From: Paenarthrobacter sp. PH39-S1
GTDB lineage: Bacteria; Actinomycetota; Actinomycetes; Actinomycetales; Micrococcaceae
Reading direction: 5' to 3'
Assembly (NCBI RefSeq): GCF_030063245.1
Contig: NZ_JASISR010000019.1
Location: forward strand, 1 to 64,000
Length of the DNA stretch: 64,000 nucleotides
The notes under the pieces were generated by a model. It was not told the DNA's origin. It did no database searches and saw only the letters and a program-made list of their open reading frames with translations. Position numbers and translations under genes: made by a program. The stretch's first letter is position 1; each line of letters starts with the position of its first letter. Positions 46,278 to 52,650 of the stretch are shown here, in pieces.

Positions 46278-47855
46278 TTAGAGCAGCTCGCCGGGGCGCA
46301 GGAACAGCACGCGGGTTTTGCGGTCGATGAAGACCATGTACAACGCGAACGACACGCCCACCACGATCGCCACCGCGCGCACAATTCCAATCGGGATCCA
46401 TTGAAAGACGCTCAGCTGGTCCGTCAGGGCGATCAGCATGAAAAACGCGGTCAGGAACAGCACCATGCGCAGCTGCCAGTTTTCCTTGATACCGACGACG
46501 CCGAACAACACGAGCAGCCAGACCATGTACCACGGCTGGATCATCGGTGCCAGGAGCACGACGGCGGCGAAGCCCCACGCCATCCGGCTTAGGATGGTAG
46601 CGCTATAGGTGCTTCCCAACGGGCCTCGGAACGCAAGCCAAACGACGGCGAACACGGACAGCACGGTCCCTACCAGGTCGACGGCGGACGTCACTGCGCT
46701 GCCCGGGGCACCGAACAGACCGGCCAAAAAGCCCAGCACCGCCCCCAGCATTCCTACCGGTGCGTACCAAATCCACACTGTCGAGGAGGTGCGCAGTGCG
46801 GCCACCCAGCCGAAGCCCAGACCGTTGACCATTCCGGCGACCCACAACAGGCCCATGGATAGTACAAAGGTGAGCGCCCAGCACCAGAATTTGCGTCCCC
46901 AGCCGGCCTTGGAGCCAGCCCACAGCAGGCCAACGAACGGCAGCGCAATCAGCGTGATTGGTTTAATCGCGATGGACGCCGTGACCAGCACGATGCCCAG
47001 GAACGGTCTCTTGACAGCGGCAAAATACACCCCGGCCACCACCAGCCCGAGCATGAGGGAATCATTGTGGGCGCTGGCAATGAAGTTGATCAGCAGGACA
47101 GGGTTCAGGACAGTCAGCCAGAGAGTGCGTTCGGCGTTGATCCCGTGCAGCGCCGCGAGCTTGGGCACAAAGACGGCCAGCAGCAGCACGCCGGCCACCG
47201 CCGCCAGCCGGAACGCGATGAGGGAAACCTCGGGAATTCCAAACCCCATCCAGACGGCGAACTGCTCGATCCACAGAAACAGCGGGCCATAAGGTGTGGG
47301 AGCCTCCGTCCAGAGCGTGTCCGGGCCAAGCTGGTAGTAGTTGTTCAGCGCCGAGATTCCGTTGGTGTACGGGTTAAGCCCCTGGCTCATCAGCCGGCCC
47401 TGGCCTATGTAGGCGTAAACGTCCCGGCTGAACAACGGAAGGGCGACGACGAGTGGCAGCGCCCAGAGCAGCAGCGCCTTGCGCAGCACGGGACGGGCGG
47501 ACTCATCCCAGACACTGATCCGCTGTGCCAGCCGCAGCCACGAGCGCACCAACAGAAGAGCCCCGAAACACAGCATCACGGTACAGCTGATGACTCCAAC
47601 CGGCGTCGTCCGCGCTGCAATGAATACCGGCGTCCGGATCAGCGCGGAACTGCCCGCAAGCCAACCGACGCCAATTGACCCCAGCACCATCAGGATGGAC
47701 GCAACAAAGCCCTGTACCAAGGCAACCTTCGTGGTCCCGGCTGCGCCGGCGTCGCCCTTGTGTGACCAGGCCACCAGCAGACCAACGATCCCGGACCGCC
47801 CGCCACTAACCGCCGAGCTAAGAGCCGGGGTCCCGCGCGGTTTGTCGGTCAACAT
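46278..47855 (-). CDS. mptB: polyprenol-phosphomannose-dependent alpha-1,6-mannosyltransferase, MptB family (copy 1)
   Basis: This GT-C membrane enzyme (about 525 residues) would add mannose from polyprenyl-phosphomannose to a lipomannan backbone. It has about twelve transmembrane helices and the family motifs PLFSRDVYAYIGQGRL, GLNPYTNGISALNNYY and PTPYGPLFLWIEQ near the first third. The ATG at 47855 follows GAGGACTC; an open frame reaches 47948 with ATG there, so the start is not certain. It mirrors the copy at 50854. Confidence 0.85.
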   Translation of the reverse strand: MLTDKPRGTPALSSAVSGGRSGIVGLLVAWSHKGDAGAAGTTKVALVQGFVASILMVLGSIGVGWLAGSSALIRTPVFIAARTTPVGVISCTVMLCFGALLLVRSWLRLAQRISVWDESARPVLRKALLLWALPLVVALPLFSRDVYAYIGQGRLMSQGLNPYTNGISALNNYYQLGPDTLWTEAPTPYGPLFLWIEQFAVWMGFGIPEVSLIAFRLAAVAGVLLLAVFVPKLAALHGINAERTLWLTVLNPVLLINFIASAHNDSLMLGLVVAGVYFAAVKRPFLGIVLVTASIAIKPITLIALPFVGLLWAGSKAGWGRKFWCWALTFVLSMGLLWVAGMVNGLGFGWVAALRTSSTVWIWYAPVGMLGAVLGFLAGLFGAPGSAVTSAVDLVGTVLSVFAVVWLAFRGPLGSTYSATILSRMAWGFAAVVLLAPMIQPWYMVWLLVLFGVVGIKENWQLRMVLFLTAFFMLIALTDQLSVFQWIPIGIVRAVAIVVGVSFALYMVFIDRKTRVLFLRPGELL

Positions 47856-48177
47856 CGATGAAGAGTCCTCTTCGGTAAGGAGATACGCGCTGCCTTTGGG
47901 GGCTCGCGGCAGGCAACGGTTGGCCTCGATATCGGCTGATCCCGCCACCCGAAGATGATGCTCGGGACCACGGCGATTCTAACACCGCGGGCGTGCGCCC
48001 ACACGGTCCCGGCGCCCACCTGCGGTAATATCAAGGGGCGGGAACTTTCCGTGCGCGGTTTTATCCCGCACCCCCGGCCTGCCGGCGGTCCCCTCCGCGG
48101 CGGCTGCACGAACCCGCCGGACACCGATCCGCTCCATGGCCAGCCACGGAGATCCATATTTGAGAAGGACTGCTCAC
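47856..48177. other. divergent intergenic region between mptB and GT87
   Basis: This 322-bp gap holds the promoters of two divergent genes. The mptB frame extends to 47948 and the GT87 frame back to 48136, but only weakly supported starts lie there. I see no RNA gene or repeat. Confidence 0.45.
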
Positions 48178-49497
48178 ATTTCTACGGACTCTTTCTTCGG
48201 CGCCTTGACGCGGGCCCGGCAACGTCTGCTGTCAGGCCCGGCGGCGGCGCGGCTCAATACCCCCCGGGGCCTGCTCTGGGGCTTTATAGCCATCCACCTG
48301 TTCTTCATCGGGTTCATGATGATCTGGGTCGTGCAGGGCCAGGCGTTCAGCGATACGTTCATTTACCGGGAATGGGCCGCCGCCGGGTTCCGTGATGAAA
48401 ATCTCTCCAGCGGTCCCAGCCCGTGGGTTTATCCGATCCTCGCGCTGCTGCCCATAGCGATCGCCGGAATCGCGGGCAAAGGGCTGTTTCTGCTGATCTG
48501 GGTCCTGATGATCACCGTCCTCAACGGCCTGGCGGTGGGTAAGCTCACCAACTGGGGCAAGAACCGCGGTACCATCCGGGCTGCTTGGTGGTGGCTGGTG
48601 TTCGTCCTCCTGATGGGCTGGCTCGGCTTTGCACGCGTGGACGGCCTGACGGCACCTCTCGTGCTCATTGCGCTCGTCTACGGCGTCGCCAACCCGTTTG
48701 TGGCCTCCGTGCTGCTCAGCATCGCGACATGGGTCAAGGTCTGGCCCGCCGCCGTCGTGCTGGCGCTGTTCACCGTCGTGAGGGAGCGACTTCGCGTTCT
48801 GGCTGCCGGCATTCTGGTCACCGCTGTGGTGGCGGCCGCGGCGCTGTCCCTGGGCGCCCTGCCCAAGCTGTTCCATTTCCTGACTGAACAAGGCGATCGC
48901 GGCATGCAGCTGGAGGCCACGTTCACCACGCCATGGCTCTGGCTGTCCGTGCTGAACGCCGGCGGCACACGGATGTACATGAATACGGACATCAACTCCA
49001 TGCAGGTCGACGGGCCCGGAACGGCCCTGATGTCCTACCTGATGCAGCCGCTGCTCATTGTTGCCGCCCTCCTGGTGGCCGGTCTGATCTTCTGGGCGCT
49101 GCATAACGGCAACCGGCACGGCGGACAAGGCGGCGGCGCGGACCGCACCGAGCTGCTGCTGGCCGGTTCGCTGACCATGGCGACGGCGTTCGTCGTCTTT
49201 AATAAGGTCGGCTCGCCTCAGTTCATGGTCTGGCTGGCCCCGGCCGTCGCCGTCGGCCTGGCGCACTGCTGGAAGGAATGGCGCGTTCCTGCCGCCATGC
49301 TGACCGGCATTGCCGTGGCCACGTTCTTTGTGTACCCGCTGTTTTATGACGCGCTGAGCCACAACAACCCGGTGATGGCGCTGGTGCTGACGATCCGGAA
49401 CGTGCTGCTGGTCGTGCTGTTCTGCTGGTCCGTTCGTAGGCTCGTTGTGCTGGGCAAGCGGGCTGAAAAGCCTGTCGACGCCATCAAGGAGTCCTAA
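48178..49497 (+). CDS. GT87-like membrane glycosyltransferase, copy 1, probably ATT start
   Basis: This GT-C polytopic protein (about 439 residues) resembles GT87/DUF2029 mannosyltransferases: a luminal loop with QAFSDTFIYREWAAAGF after the first helix, SPWVYPILALLP, and then about ten helices. No ATG, GTG or TTG has a ribosome site. An ATT at 48178 has AAGGA about ten bases upstream and begins ISTDSFFGALTRARQRL, matching the ATT-begun N-terminus of the paralogue. An ATG at 48136 without a site is the alternative. It probably forms an operon with the next gene. Confidence 0.8.
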   Translation: MSTDSFFGALTRARQRLLSGPAAARLNTPRGLLWGFIAIHLFFIGFMMIWVVQGQAFSDTFIYREWAAAGFRDENLSSGPSPWVYPILALLPIAIAGIAGKGLFLLIWVLMITVLNGLAVGKLTNWGKNRGTIRAAWWWLVFVLLMGWLGFARVDGLTAPLVLIALVYGVANPFVASVLLSIATWVKVWPAAVVLALFTVVRERLRVLAAGILVTAVVAAAALSLGALPKLFHFLTEQGDRGMQLEATFTTPWLWLSVLNAGGTRMYMNTDINSMQVDGPGTALMSYLMQPLLIVAALLVAGLIFWALHNGNRHGGQGGGADRTELLLAGSLTMATAFVVFNKVGSPQFMVWLAPAVAVGLAHCWKEWRVPAAMLTGIAVATFFVYPLFYDALSHNNPVMALVLTIRNVLLVVLFCWSVRRLVVLGKRAEKPVDAIKES

Positions 49498-49498
49498 G

Positions 49499-50794
49499 AT
49501 TTCCGTCAAATTCTTTGACCTGCTGCTTCGCGTCCGCGGTGCCCTGCTCCCGCCGGCCGCCGTGGCGTGGTTTTCACGCCCCGCCAGTGTCTGGTGGGGC
49601 TTTGCCGTGGTCCATCTGTATTTCCTTGCCTGGATGATGTCGTTCGTCATCCACGGCACTACGTTCAGCGACACGGAGCAGTACCGCCAATGGGCCCTGG
49701 CTGGTTTTAATCCGGCGGACATGGAAGGGAGCATCAGCCCCTGGGTCTATCCTGTTCTGGCGCAGATCCCCATTTTCCTTGCCAATGTTGCCGGCCCGGA
49801 CGTCTATTTGCTGATGTGGATGCTGATCATCACGGCGCTCAACGCCGGGGCCATGCTGTATCTGACCCGCGGTCCCCGCCGGAGGACCGGCATCGCGCCG
49901 GCCTGGTGGTGGCTGGTCTTCCTGATCTTTATGGGCTACCTCGGGTTTGCCCGGGTGGAAGGCATCACCGCCCCGATTGTCCTGGTGGCGCTTCTCTTTG
50001 CCGCCAGGCGGCCGCTGGTGGCTACGGTGCTGCTGAGCATCGCGACCTGGATCAAGGTCTGGCCCGCGGCCGTCATCGCGCCGATTGTGATCGTCAGCCG
50101 GAAGCGGGTGAAAATCATCGCCACCGGTGTCCTGGTCAGCGCCGTCGTGCTGCTGGGCACGTATCTGGCCGGCGGTGGAAAGTATCTGTTCGATTTTCTG
50201 ACCAACCAAGGCGAGCGGGGCATGCAGTTGGAGGCTACCTTCTCCACGCCGTGGGTCTGGCTGAGCGTCTTCCATCTGGGCGGATCAAAGATCGCGGATA
50301 ATCTTGCCATCAATTCAACCGAGGTCTACGGGCCGGGCGCATCCGCCGCGGCGTTTCTGATGCAGCCGCTGTTCCTGCTGGCGGCGCTGGTGGCGGCGCT
50401 GCTGCTCGTCTGGGCGCTGCACCAGGGTGCCGAACGCGAGGAACTGTTCCTGGAGGGCGCCCTGATGATGACCACCGCGTTCATCGTGTTCAACAAGGTG
50501 GGATCACCGCAGTTCATTATCTGGCTGGCGCCGGTGGTCATCGCGGGGCTGACGCACGACTGGGCCCGCTGGAAGGTCCCCGCCGCGCTGCTGATGGCCA
50601 TTGCCATCACCACATTCGTGATCTATCCGCTGTTTTATACACCGCTGATCCACGCGAACCCCGTGATGGCGGCAGTGCTGAGTACCCGCAATGTACTCCT
50701 GGTGGTGTTGTTGTACTGGTCCGTGCGCCGCACGGTTGAGCTGGCCCGCAGGCCGCGACCGGTTTCCGGCGCCCTCACCGCCGCGGCCAATTGA
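49499..50794 (+). CDS. GT87-like membrane glycosyltransferase, copy 2, probably ATT start
   Basis: Paralogue of the preceding gene, about 431 residues, with the same layout (GTTFSDTEQYRQWALAGF and SPWVYPVLAQIP). The frame starts with ATT at 49499, right after the previous gene's TAA (49495-49497), with GGAG seven bases upstream in the end of that gene. There is no other start between it and the first helix. The only upstream in-frame ATG or GTG lies inside the preceding gene. Tandem duplication of the two is evident. Confidence 0.8.
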   Translation: MSVKFFDLLLRVRGALLPPAAVAWFSRPASVWWGFAVVHLYFLAWMMSFVIHGTTFSDTEQYRQWALAGFNPADMEGSISPWVYPVLAQIPIFLANVAGPDVYLLMWMLIITALNAGAMLYLTRGPRRRTGIAPAWWWLVFLIFMGYLGFARVEGITAPIVLVALLFAARRPLVATVLLSIATWIKVWPAAVIAPIVIVSRKRVKIIATGVLVSAVVLLGTYLAGGGKYLFDFLTNQGERGMQLEATFSTPWVWLSVFHLGGSKIADNLAINSTEVYGPGASAAAFLMQPLFLLAALVAALLLVWALHQGAEREELFLEGALMMTTAFIVFNKVGSPQFIIWLAPVVIAGLTHDWARWKVPAALLMAIAITTFVIYPLFYTPLIHANPVMAAVLSTRNVLLVVLLYWSVRRTVELARRPRPVSGALTAAAN

Positions 50795-50853
50795 GCCGCA
50801 CATTCCGGGCATCCAGTCAGGCGGCCCAACCATGTGGCCGCAATCAGACGGCC

Positions 50854-52650
50854 TTAGTCAGAACGCCGTGCGGGTGGACGCGGCTCGACGGACACGCCGC
50901 CCTTGGAGGCCAGCGGCACCAGTGTGATGGCCTCGGTCGCCGGCGCCTCCAACACCGCCGCCGGGGCAACCCAGGCCTTCGTGCCGCGCAGCAGAGCGGA
51001 CAGCCCCCTATGCAGGAGCAGTTTCCTGGTGTGCACATCGATGAAGAGCAGATAGAAGATGAAGCCCAGCGCCACCAAGTACGCCAGCGTGGAGGCATGG
51101 AACTGCAGTTGCACGAAGGACCAAACCGAGAGCTGGTCCTGGGCCCCGAACACCACGAAGAACGTGATGATCACGTACAGGGACTTGATCTGCCAGTCAT
51201 TGCGGATACCCGTGACGGCGAGGAACGGGATGAACCAGAGAACGTACCAAGGCTGGATGATCGGCGACAGCATCACCACCGCGGCAAAGGCCAGTGCCAT
51301 CCGGCGGATCAGCTTTGAGTAGTCACCGCGGAACATCAGGAGAACCACCAGCCCGACGCCGGCATATTTGAGCCCCGTCCGCAGAATCCCAGCCAGCATC
51401 CCCCCGTGCAGACCGAGCACGTTGGCCAGAGCCTCCACCCGTTGCCCGAGGAACCCGGACGGTGAATAGCCGGTGTAGCCGGGGGTGGGATCCAGGATGG
51501 CCCAGACCCAGCCCAGTCCCAGGTTGTAAGGGATGCCGCTGAGCGCCAGCACGCCGAAGCTGATCGCCGCCGTCGCCCCCCAGAAGAGGAACTTCCTGCC
51601 CAGCGACGCGGCGGGACCGGCCCACAGCAGCGCGATGAAGGGCAGCAGCAGCACGGTGATCGGCTTGACACCGATGGACGCGGTCACCAGCAGGATGCCC
51701 CAGATCGGGCGTTTGGTGGCGGCGAGATAGGTGCCAGCGACGGCGAGCCCCACCATCAGCGCGTCATTGTGCGCACTGGCGACAAAGCTGATCAGGAAAA
51801 GCGGGTTTGCCACCGATATCCACAACGCGCGGGCGCCGCTGAGACCGTGCAGGCGCGCCAGCTTGGGCACGTAAAGCACACACAGGGCGACGCCGGCCAC
51901 GGCGAGTAGCCGGAACAGGAAGACCGAGGTGTCGGGCTGGGCGCCGGTGAACTGCACGACGGCGCGTTCGAGCCAGAGGAAGTAGGGCCCGTACGGGGTC
52001 TTCGCTTCCGCCCAAGCCGGGTCCGCGCCGAGGGCAAACCAGTTGCTGAGCGCGGAAATACCCGTGGTGTAAGGGTTCAGGCCCTCCAGAACCAGCCTGC
52101 CCTGCCCGGTATAGGCGTAGACATCGCGGGAAAAGATCGGCACGGCGAAGAGCATCGGCGCCGACCACGCCCCGATCGCGATCACCACCGAGCGTAGGGC
52201 GCCCGGTCCCCAGTTCTGCAGCCGCTGACCCAGCCGGAGCCACGACCGCATCAGCAGCATCGCACCTAGGGTCAACAGCACCGTGGAGGTCGTGACGCCC
52301 CACCCCTCGGTCCGCAACGAGATGACCACGGGGTTGCGGACCATCGGCGAGCCGTTGGCAATCCAGCCGGCGCCGATGGAGCCGACAAACATCATCAGCG
52401 ATCCGACAAAGCCCTCAACGATGGCGAAGTAGGCCTTCGGCTTGACGGGTTCGCCGGTCCCGCCCGCAGGCGAACCGGCCGGGCCCGACGGTGCAGCCAC
52501 GGATGTGGCGTGCGATGCCGCCGCAGCCGGAGCTGTCGACGTAGGCTCGGGCACGGCCCCCACGACGCCGGGCTGCGGGGCCGACGGGTCGCCGTCGACC
52601 CCCGTCTCGGGCCGGTCTCCCGTGCTCACGCGCGAATCGCCTGCCGTCAT
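50854..52650 (-). CDS. mptB: polyprenol-phosphomannose-dependent alpha-1,6-mannosyltransferase, MptB family (copy 2)
   Basis: This 598-residue paralogue of the 46278 gene has the same GT-C motifs (PIFSRDVYAYTGQGRL, GLNPYTTGISALSNWF, KTPYGPYFLWLERA), about twelve to thirteen helices, and an N-terminal disordered Ser/Pro/Ala stretch of about 70 residues. It converges on the GT87 pair from the other side, making a mirror arrangement. In Mycobacterium and Corynebacterium MptB works early in lipomannan synthesis; here the exact polymer is inferred. Confidence 0.88.
   Translation of the reverse strand: MTAGDSRVSTGDRPETGVDGDPSAPQPGVVGAVPEPTSTAPAAAASHATSVAAPSGPAGSPAGGTGEPVKPKAYFAIVEGFVGSLMMFVGSIGAGWIANGSPMVRNPVVISLRTEGWGVTTSTVLLTLGAMLLMRSWLRLGQRLQNWGPGALRSVVIAIGAWSAPMLFAVPIFSRDVYAYTGQGRLVLEGLNPYTTGISALSNWFALGADPAWAEAKTPYGPYFLWLERAVVQFTGAQPDTSVFLFRLLAVAGVALCVLYVPKLARLHGLSGARALWISVANPLFLISFVASAHNDALMVGLAVAGTYLAATKRPIWGILLVTASIGVKPITVLLLPFIALLWAGPAASLGRKFLFWGATAAISFGVLALSGIPYNLGLGWVWAILDPTPGYTGYSPSGFLGQRVEALANVLGLHGGMLAGILRTGLKYAGVGLVVLLMFRGDYSKLIRRMALAFAAVVMLSPIIQPWYVLWFIPFLAVTGIRNDWQIKSLYVIITFFVVFGAQDQLSVWSFVQLQFHASTLAYLVALGFIFYLLFIDVHTRKLLLHRGLSALLRGTKAWVAPAAVLEAPATEAITLVPLASKGGVSVEPRPPARRSD

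Follow-up and report, generated by a model that had tools for sequence, protein, structure and literature searches.

Two adjacent genes for GT87 membrane glycosyltransferases in the window (the whole stretch of 64,000 nucleotides analysed here) very probably start translation at AUU codons, as judged from the comparison of their start regions among relatives. The same comparison indicates that selection for an output that is low or adjustable has probably maintained the AUU start, which ranks among the weakest known. The host genome of the window belongs to an Arthrobacter-like actinobacterium and is 4.65 Mb in size. Gene 1 is located at 48178..49497 on the plus strand (start ATT at 48178-48180, assigned by comparison, and stop TAA at 49495-49497), and its paralogue, gene 2, at 49499..50794 on the same strand, with its start ATT (49499-49501) one base past the gene 1 stop. 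The two tandem genes encode proteins that are approximately 55% identical and have N-termini that align, and both pass the curated cut-off of 25 bits for PF09594, the model of GT87 (35.7 bits for gene 1, scanned from 48160, and 31 bits for gene 2). The earlier note, made from the letters of this DNA, had described them as adjacent GT87 paralogues with aligning N-termini, and this description is borne out. Its assignment of ribosome sites to the two ATT codons also agrees with our results: a Shine-Dalgarno (SD) sequence AAGGA is present at 48165..48169 on the plus strand, 8 nt ahead of the ATT of gene 1, and AAGGAG at 49486..49491 on the plus strand, within the last codons of gene 1 and 7 nt ahead of the ATT of gene 2. 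The further claim that ribosome sites are lacking at all of the usual starts does not hold for gene 1, since a rival TTG at 48160..48162 (plus strand) is in frame and has GGAG at 48148-48151, 8 nt upstream.

The GT87 pair lies between two opposite-strand genes for MptB-like mannosyltransferases, and positions 46278-52650 of the window form a four-gene mannosyltransferase cluster. One of the flanking genes, at 46278..47948 on the minus strand, is divergent from gene 1 (NF038066, 106.4 bits against 40); this interval is the longest open reading frame as listed, and the probable start is inside it. The other, at 50854..52650 on the minus strand, is convergent with gene 2 (NF038066, 102.3 bits against 40). 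Because MptB-like genes flank both sides, a role of the pair in lipomannan-type glycan assembly is likely, and the same neighbours suggest that the pair performs polyprenyl-phosphomannose-dependent mannosyl transfer. No match of the GT87 proteins to any solved chain was found by phmmer with E up to 1. PimE of mycobacteria is a member of GT87. It is a GT-C mannosyltransferase in which an essential Asp close to the N-terminus, D58, sits on the first outer segment, at its tip (PMC12041525). An invariant Asp is found after the first membrane helix in both proteins of the pair (D59 of gene 1 in 58/58 and D58 of gene 2 in 73/73); these residues are numbered from the ATT and, judged by position, may correspond to PimE D58.

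The following data have been used for the comparison of starts: genome contigs of relatives were scanned with the gene 2 protein, and the best 80 of 126 loci were taken, giving 81 rows together with the window. The GT87 pair is present in all of these 80 named relatives' loci (in L046, L047, L062 and L107 in pieces), and among named relatives, Arthrobacter terrae Z1-20 (L036) and Arthrobacter sp. H14-L1 (L037) are the nearest. For gene 2, the start column of the 81 rows contains ATT in 72, ATC in two and ATG in two, and five rows are unassigned, namely L096, which has ATG four codons upstream of the column, and four Kocuria loci with unalignable N-termini. For gene 1, ATT is found in 51 of the 81 rows, ATC in 10, ATG in five, GTG in four and others in 11, the last being mostly Paenarthrobacter-like loci with an adjoining TTG. 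Sequencing error or a one-strain oddity is ruled out by ATT or ATC in 74/81 rows of gene 2 and 61/81 of gene 1. With ATT at both sites in most of the 80 loci, the comparison across relatives upholds the proposal of ATT initiation in both genes. The loci with ATT span genera including Arthrobacter, Pseudarthrobacter, Paenarthrobacter, Kocuria and Sinomonas, and the single-copy relatives in genus code g7 (L031, L032, L034 and L035) have an SD and ATT too. The SD is retained along with the codon: AAGGA in all 61 ATT/ATC loci of gene 1 and AAGGAG in 71 of the 74 of gene 2. The gap from the gene 1 stop to the gene 2 start is 1 nt, in the +1 frame, in 75 of the 81 rows (the best 80 of 126 loci and the window). 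In the GT87 homologue of L033, GTT TCC GTG follows GAGGAG at the usual spacing, and its start is either GTT in place of ATT or the GTG, which would then have a long spacer.

Usual starts are found elsewhere in the family of sequences, i.e. in gene 1 of Kocuria, in gene 1 of Paenarthrobacter-like loci (TTG) and in distant relatives that were assignable by eye. Start labels given by eye are TTG in seven gene 1 rows, ATG in gene 1 of L090 and gene 2 of L096, and those of 11 added loci. In nine Kocuria loci, ATG or GTG is present at the position of the gene 1 ATT, where the codons of L104-L106 were read by ungapped extension of the alignment, and gene 2 of L094, L095 and L096 has ATG one base past the gene 1 stop, where others have ATT. 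The earlier note had regarded ATG at the same place in orthologues as evidence against an ATT start. Such orthologues do occur, as these loci of Kocuria gene 1 and of gene 2 show, but a usual codon at the same place confirms the start site instead. Among the gene 2 orthologues with ATG, no SD is found in L094 and L023, only 4-mers in L095 and L096, and AGGAG in L019, L021 and L022; these weaker and varied SDs fit a trade between SD and codon in a small sample. In the other families of the order, no SD-backed ATT was noticed by eye in 17 start regions of GT87 homologues.

Several features of the reading frames place initiation at the ATT. ATG, GTG and TTG are all absent from the stretch between the Ile codon and the in-frame stop preceding it in 47 of the 74 ATT/ATC loci of gene 2 and in 15 of the 61 of gene 1. 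In the window, the sole in-frame usual codon upstream of the gene 2 ATT is TTG 49445, 18 codons up. Upstream usual codons of gene 1 are SD-backed in only 14/61 loci and at scattered positions, and among downstream usual codons in the first 90 columns, none is SD-backed in at least 30% of rows. Codon periodicity of gene 1 is absent upstream of the ATT (0.50/0.49/0.52 for the three codon positions) and present downstream (0.81/0.90/0.69), with third-base variability going up after the ATT. The share of ATT was analysed in full-length rows, which are 58 of the 61 and 73 of the 74 Ile-start rows of genes 1 and 2, respectively. ATT accounts for 71/73 at the gene 2 start, compared with 3-36% at 14 other columns with at least 90% Ile, and for 48/58 at the gene 1 start, compared with 2-28% at five such columns; among all internal Ile codons, it accounts for 14.1% in gene 2 and 14.4% in gene 1. 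The excess at the start columns is not what one would expect of an internal Ile codon, but a start codon might show it. Since the rows used for SD, periodicity and ATT share were picked for ATT or ATC, the informative quantities there are the split between ATT and ATC, the SD and the periodicity. Usual starts upstream or downstream of the ATT are disfavoured by these comparisons.

A start of gene 1 at an upstream usual codon, either TTG 48160 or a codon at -9 that is perhaps leaderless, would make the ATT an internal codon, and we consider this quite improbable. The TTG lies six codons up with GGAG at 8 nt, and GTG, TTG or ATG is present at codon -9 in 30/61 loci; however, the -9 codon is SD-less in all 30, and the 15 stop-blocked loci of gene 1 and the nine Kocuria loci with ATG or GTG in place of the ATT also stand against an upstream start. 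TTG 48160 itself is missing from the nearest relatives, in which this codon is CCG (L036) and TCG (L037). Because both keep AGAAGGA and the ATT nevertheless, the TTG looks incidental, and having GGAG, it could be used additionally in this strain. Still less credible is a prfB-like frameshift (+1) on the stop codon of gene 1 (AAG GAG TCC TGA N ATT), which would produce a fusion protein and make the gene 2 ATT internal. The +1 frame with a 1-nt gap in the 75 of 81 rows, as well as the SD-like AAGGAG adjoining the gene 1 stop, are what such a frameshift would need, whereas as many as 10 different triplets precede the stop in these 75 rows, giving no conserved slippery site, and gene 1 has the same SD-ATT layout without any gene reading in. 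Furthermore, ATG occupies the same place in L094, L095 and L096, and the retained codon is ATT and not ATC.

With initiation at the AUU preferred, the remaining alternative concerns its significance. A plain AUU start with no regulation would set the output at a low and constant value, which has been proposed for pcnB, or would be near-neutral behind a strong SD, and we regard this as rather unlikely, though clearly less so than the two alternatives above. The strong SD, present in nearly all of the ATT loci, could offset the codon, and constant low output fits the retention of ATT as well as regulation does; against the neutral version, ATT holds against the steps to ATG and ATC in most lineages. 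A start-codon tree was constructed by FastTree with 167 rows, of which 161 have a start label and six do not; broken or split sequences (L046_g1, L047_g1, L062_g1, L075_g1, L107_g1 and L107_g2) are omitted. The start labels of these 161 rows can be explained on the tree by only eight switches between an Ile-type and a usual start, and ATT is found in 59/59 rows of one branch of gene 2. In a reconstruction of start codons with 36 genome triplets, a change from AUG to AUU was observed once in 61,358 starts (PMC5622118). Since ATT has withstood, in most lineages, the one-base change that would give ATG as well as the change towards GC that would give ATC, neutrality is unlikely, and the long persistence of a weak start with an SD that is nearly invariant points to weak initiation as the selected property. 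The retention of AUU by relatives thus suggests that weak, adjustable production of GT87 enzymes is under selection.

In the explanation that we prefer, the AUU of both GT87 genes would be read by ordinary fMet initiation, aided by strong, well-spaced SDs, and the weak codon would be selectively kept, by which the membrane mannosyltransferases are held at a low level. The GT87 level would track initiation stringency, i.e. active IF3, like that of infC. Since gene 2 starts one base past the gene 1 stop, it is probably also supplied by termination-reinitiation from gene 1. IF3 represses non-canonical starts in E. coli and Streptomyces (PMC5472188). A link with IF3 is plausible in this lineage because the infC gene of the own genome also starts with ATT; and the ATT or ATC of infC in the lineage, together with the repression of Streptomyces sigR by IF3 (PMC5472188), makes IF3 sensitivity of the GT87 genes likely. 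From this analogy, we lean towards the view that the pair is IF3-responsive in vivo. In an E. coli reporter, re-initiation was lowered by extra IF3, and this was ascribed to a weak SD (PMC2268962), whereas gene 2 has a strong SD; the effect may matter for gene 2 because of its start one base past the gene 1 stop. The explanation as a whole, composed of AUU starts, SDs and selection for low output following IF3, appears reasonably probable to us.

Because infC is involved in this explanation, Ile-type starts of other genes were compared. All 29 infC genes collected from genomes of the order (L116-L144) start with ATT (16) or ATC (13), and ATC is found in nine of the ten genomes outside the family. 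The infC of the own genome (L131) has an ATT start that is preceded, at a distance of one codon, by an in-frame TGA, and a usual start is therefore impossible between the two. For a wider search, 1.2 Mb each of two genomes (G065 and G136) was screened, with 799 orthologue pairs of at least 55% identity. An SD-backed usual start was found in both members of 433 pairs, and of the 366 pairs without it, 32 have an SD-backed Ile pair. Candidates were judged by offsets and scores; six were read as sequence, as were 19 rows of a second filter for stop-blocked cases. Two genes survived, one being GT87 gene 2 and the other of the Stealth type, and one candidate near 1041525 is ambiguous. The last, on G065:C1, has a conserved AGGTGAGGTA ATT TCT TTG in both genomes, starting with ATT or, more likely, TTG. 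The screen is an insensitive one, in that it missed GT87 gene 1 (TTG in G065) and infC and its SD rule was blank for 366/799 pairs. The Stealth-type gene has all of the regions CR1-CR4 (L219, G065:C1:680667-682253, minus strand) and is present in the own genome as L288 (G000:C56). Among the Stealth homologues of Micrococcaceae (29 of the 46 listed), 14/29, including L288, have an SD-backed ATT (nine) or ATC (five), and in eight of these 14 the stretch that follows the upstream stop lacks any usual codon; the others have GTG or ATG starts, and some are unassignable. As far as seen, the Ile-type start is rare and found on infC and surface-glycan genes. Since the cases are so few, the surface-glycan theme may be due to chance. 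We propose only tentatively, as a possibility on the doubtful side, that Micrococcaceae have an AUU/AUC class tied to IF3, small in size and consisting of infC, the pair of surface mannosyltransferases and the Stealth-type gene for a surface-polysaccharide enzyme, through which initiation stringency sets envelope glycans.

To our knowledge, only a handful of bacterial genes outside infC have conserved AUU starts. Among the matches listed in the open-access literature, neither for GT87 genes nor for relatives of Arthrobacter was an AUU start found to be reported. Here, two paralogues keep AUU side by side over dozens of species and several genera, and the ATG and GTG replacements in sister lineages are ready-made natural controls. 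The question of which genes IF3 sets, and why surface glycan enzymes are among them, becomes directly testable. For databases, the N-termini of the proteins of this pair are probably misannotated wherever only ATG, GTG and TTG are allowed.

Among the closest known systems is the autoregulated infC, which has AUU or AUC with a strong SD and is conserved as in the GT87 pair, with ATT in E. coli and ATC in Streptomyces (PMC5472188); the pair differs from infC in encoding membrane enzymes and not a regulator, and no feedback loop is implied. Streptomyces sigR resembles the pair in its strong SD, conserved non-canonical start and misannotated starts. Its codon is GTC in 32/34 species and GTT in two, and its repression by IF3 was measured (PMC5472188), while the GT87 genes have ATT and their response to IF3 would follow by analogy. 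In Staphylococcus aureus, cvfC1 (AUU) and ccpN (AUA) have conserved non-canonical starts with an extended SD, like GT87, and their reporters gave about 10% of the AUG output in one medium; they are single genes of other function, and infC of this species starts with AUA (PMC13009471). In E. coli, AUU limits pcnB, a non-regulator gene (Binns and Masters 2002, as cited in PMC13009471 and PMC1780047). pcnB is one gene, whereas the GT87 genes are two tandem paralogues, the second of which adjoins the stop of the first, and such a tandem adjoining pair is unusual in comparison with infC, pcnB, sigR, cvfC1 and ccpN.
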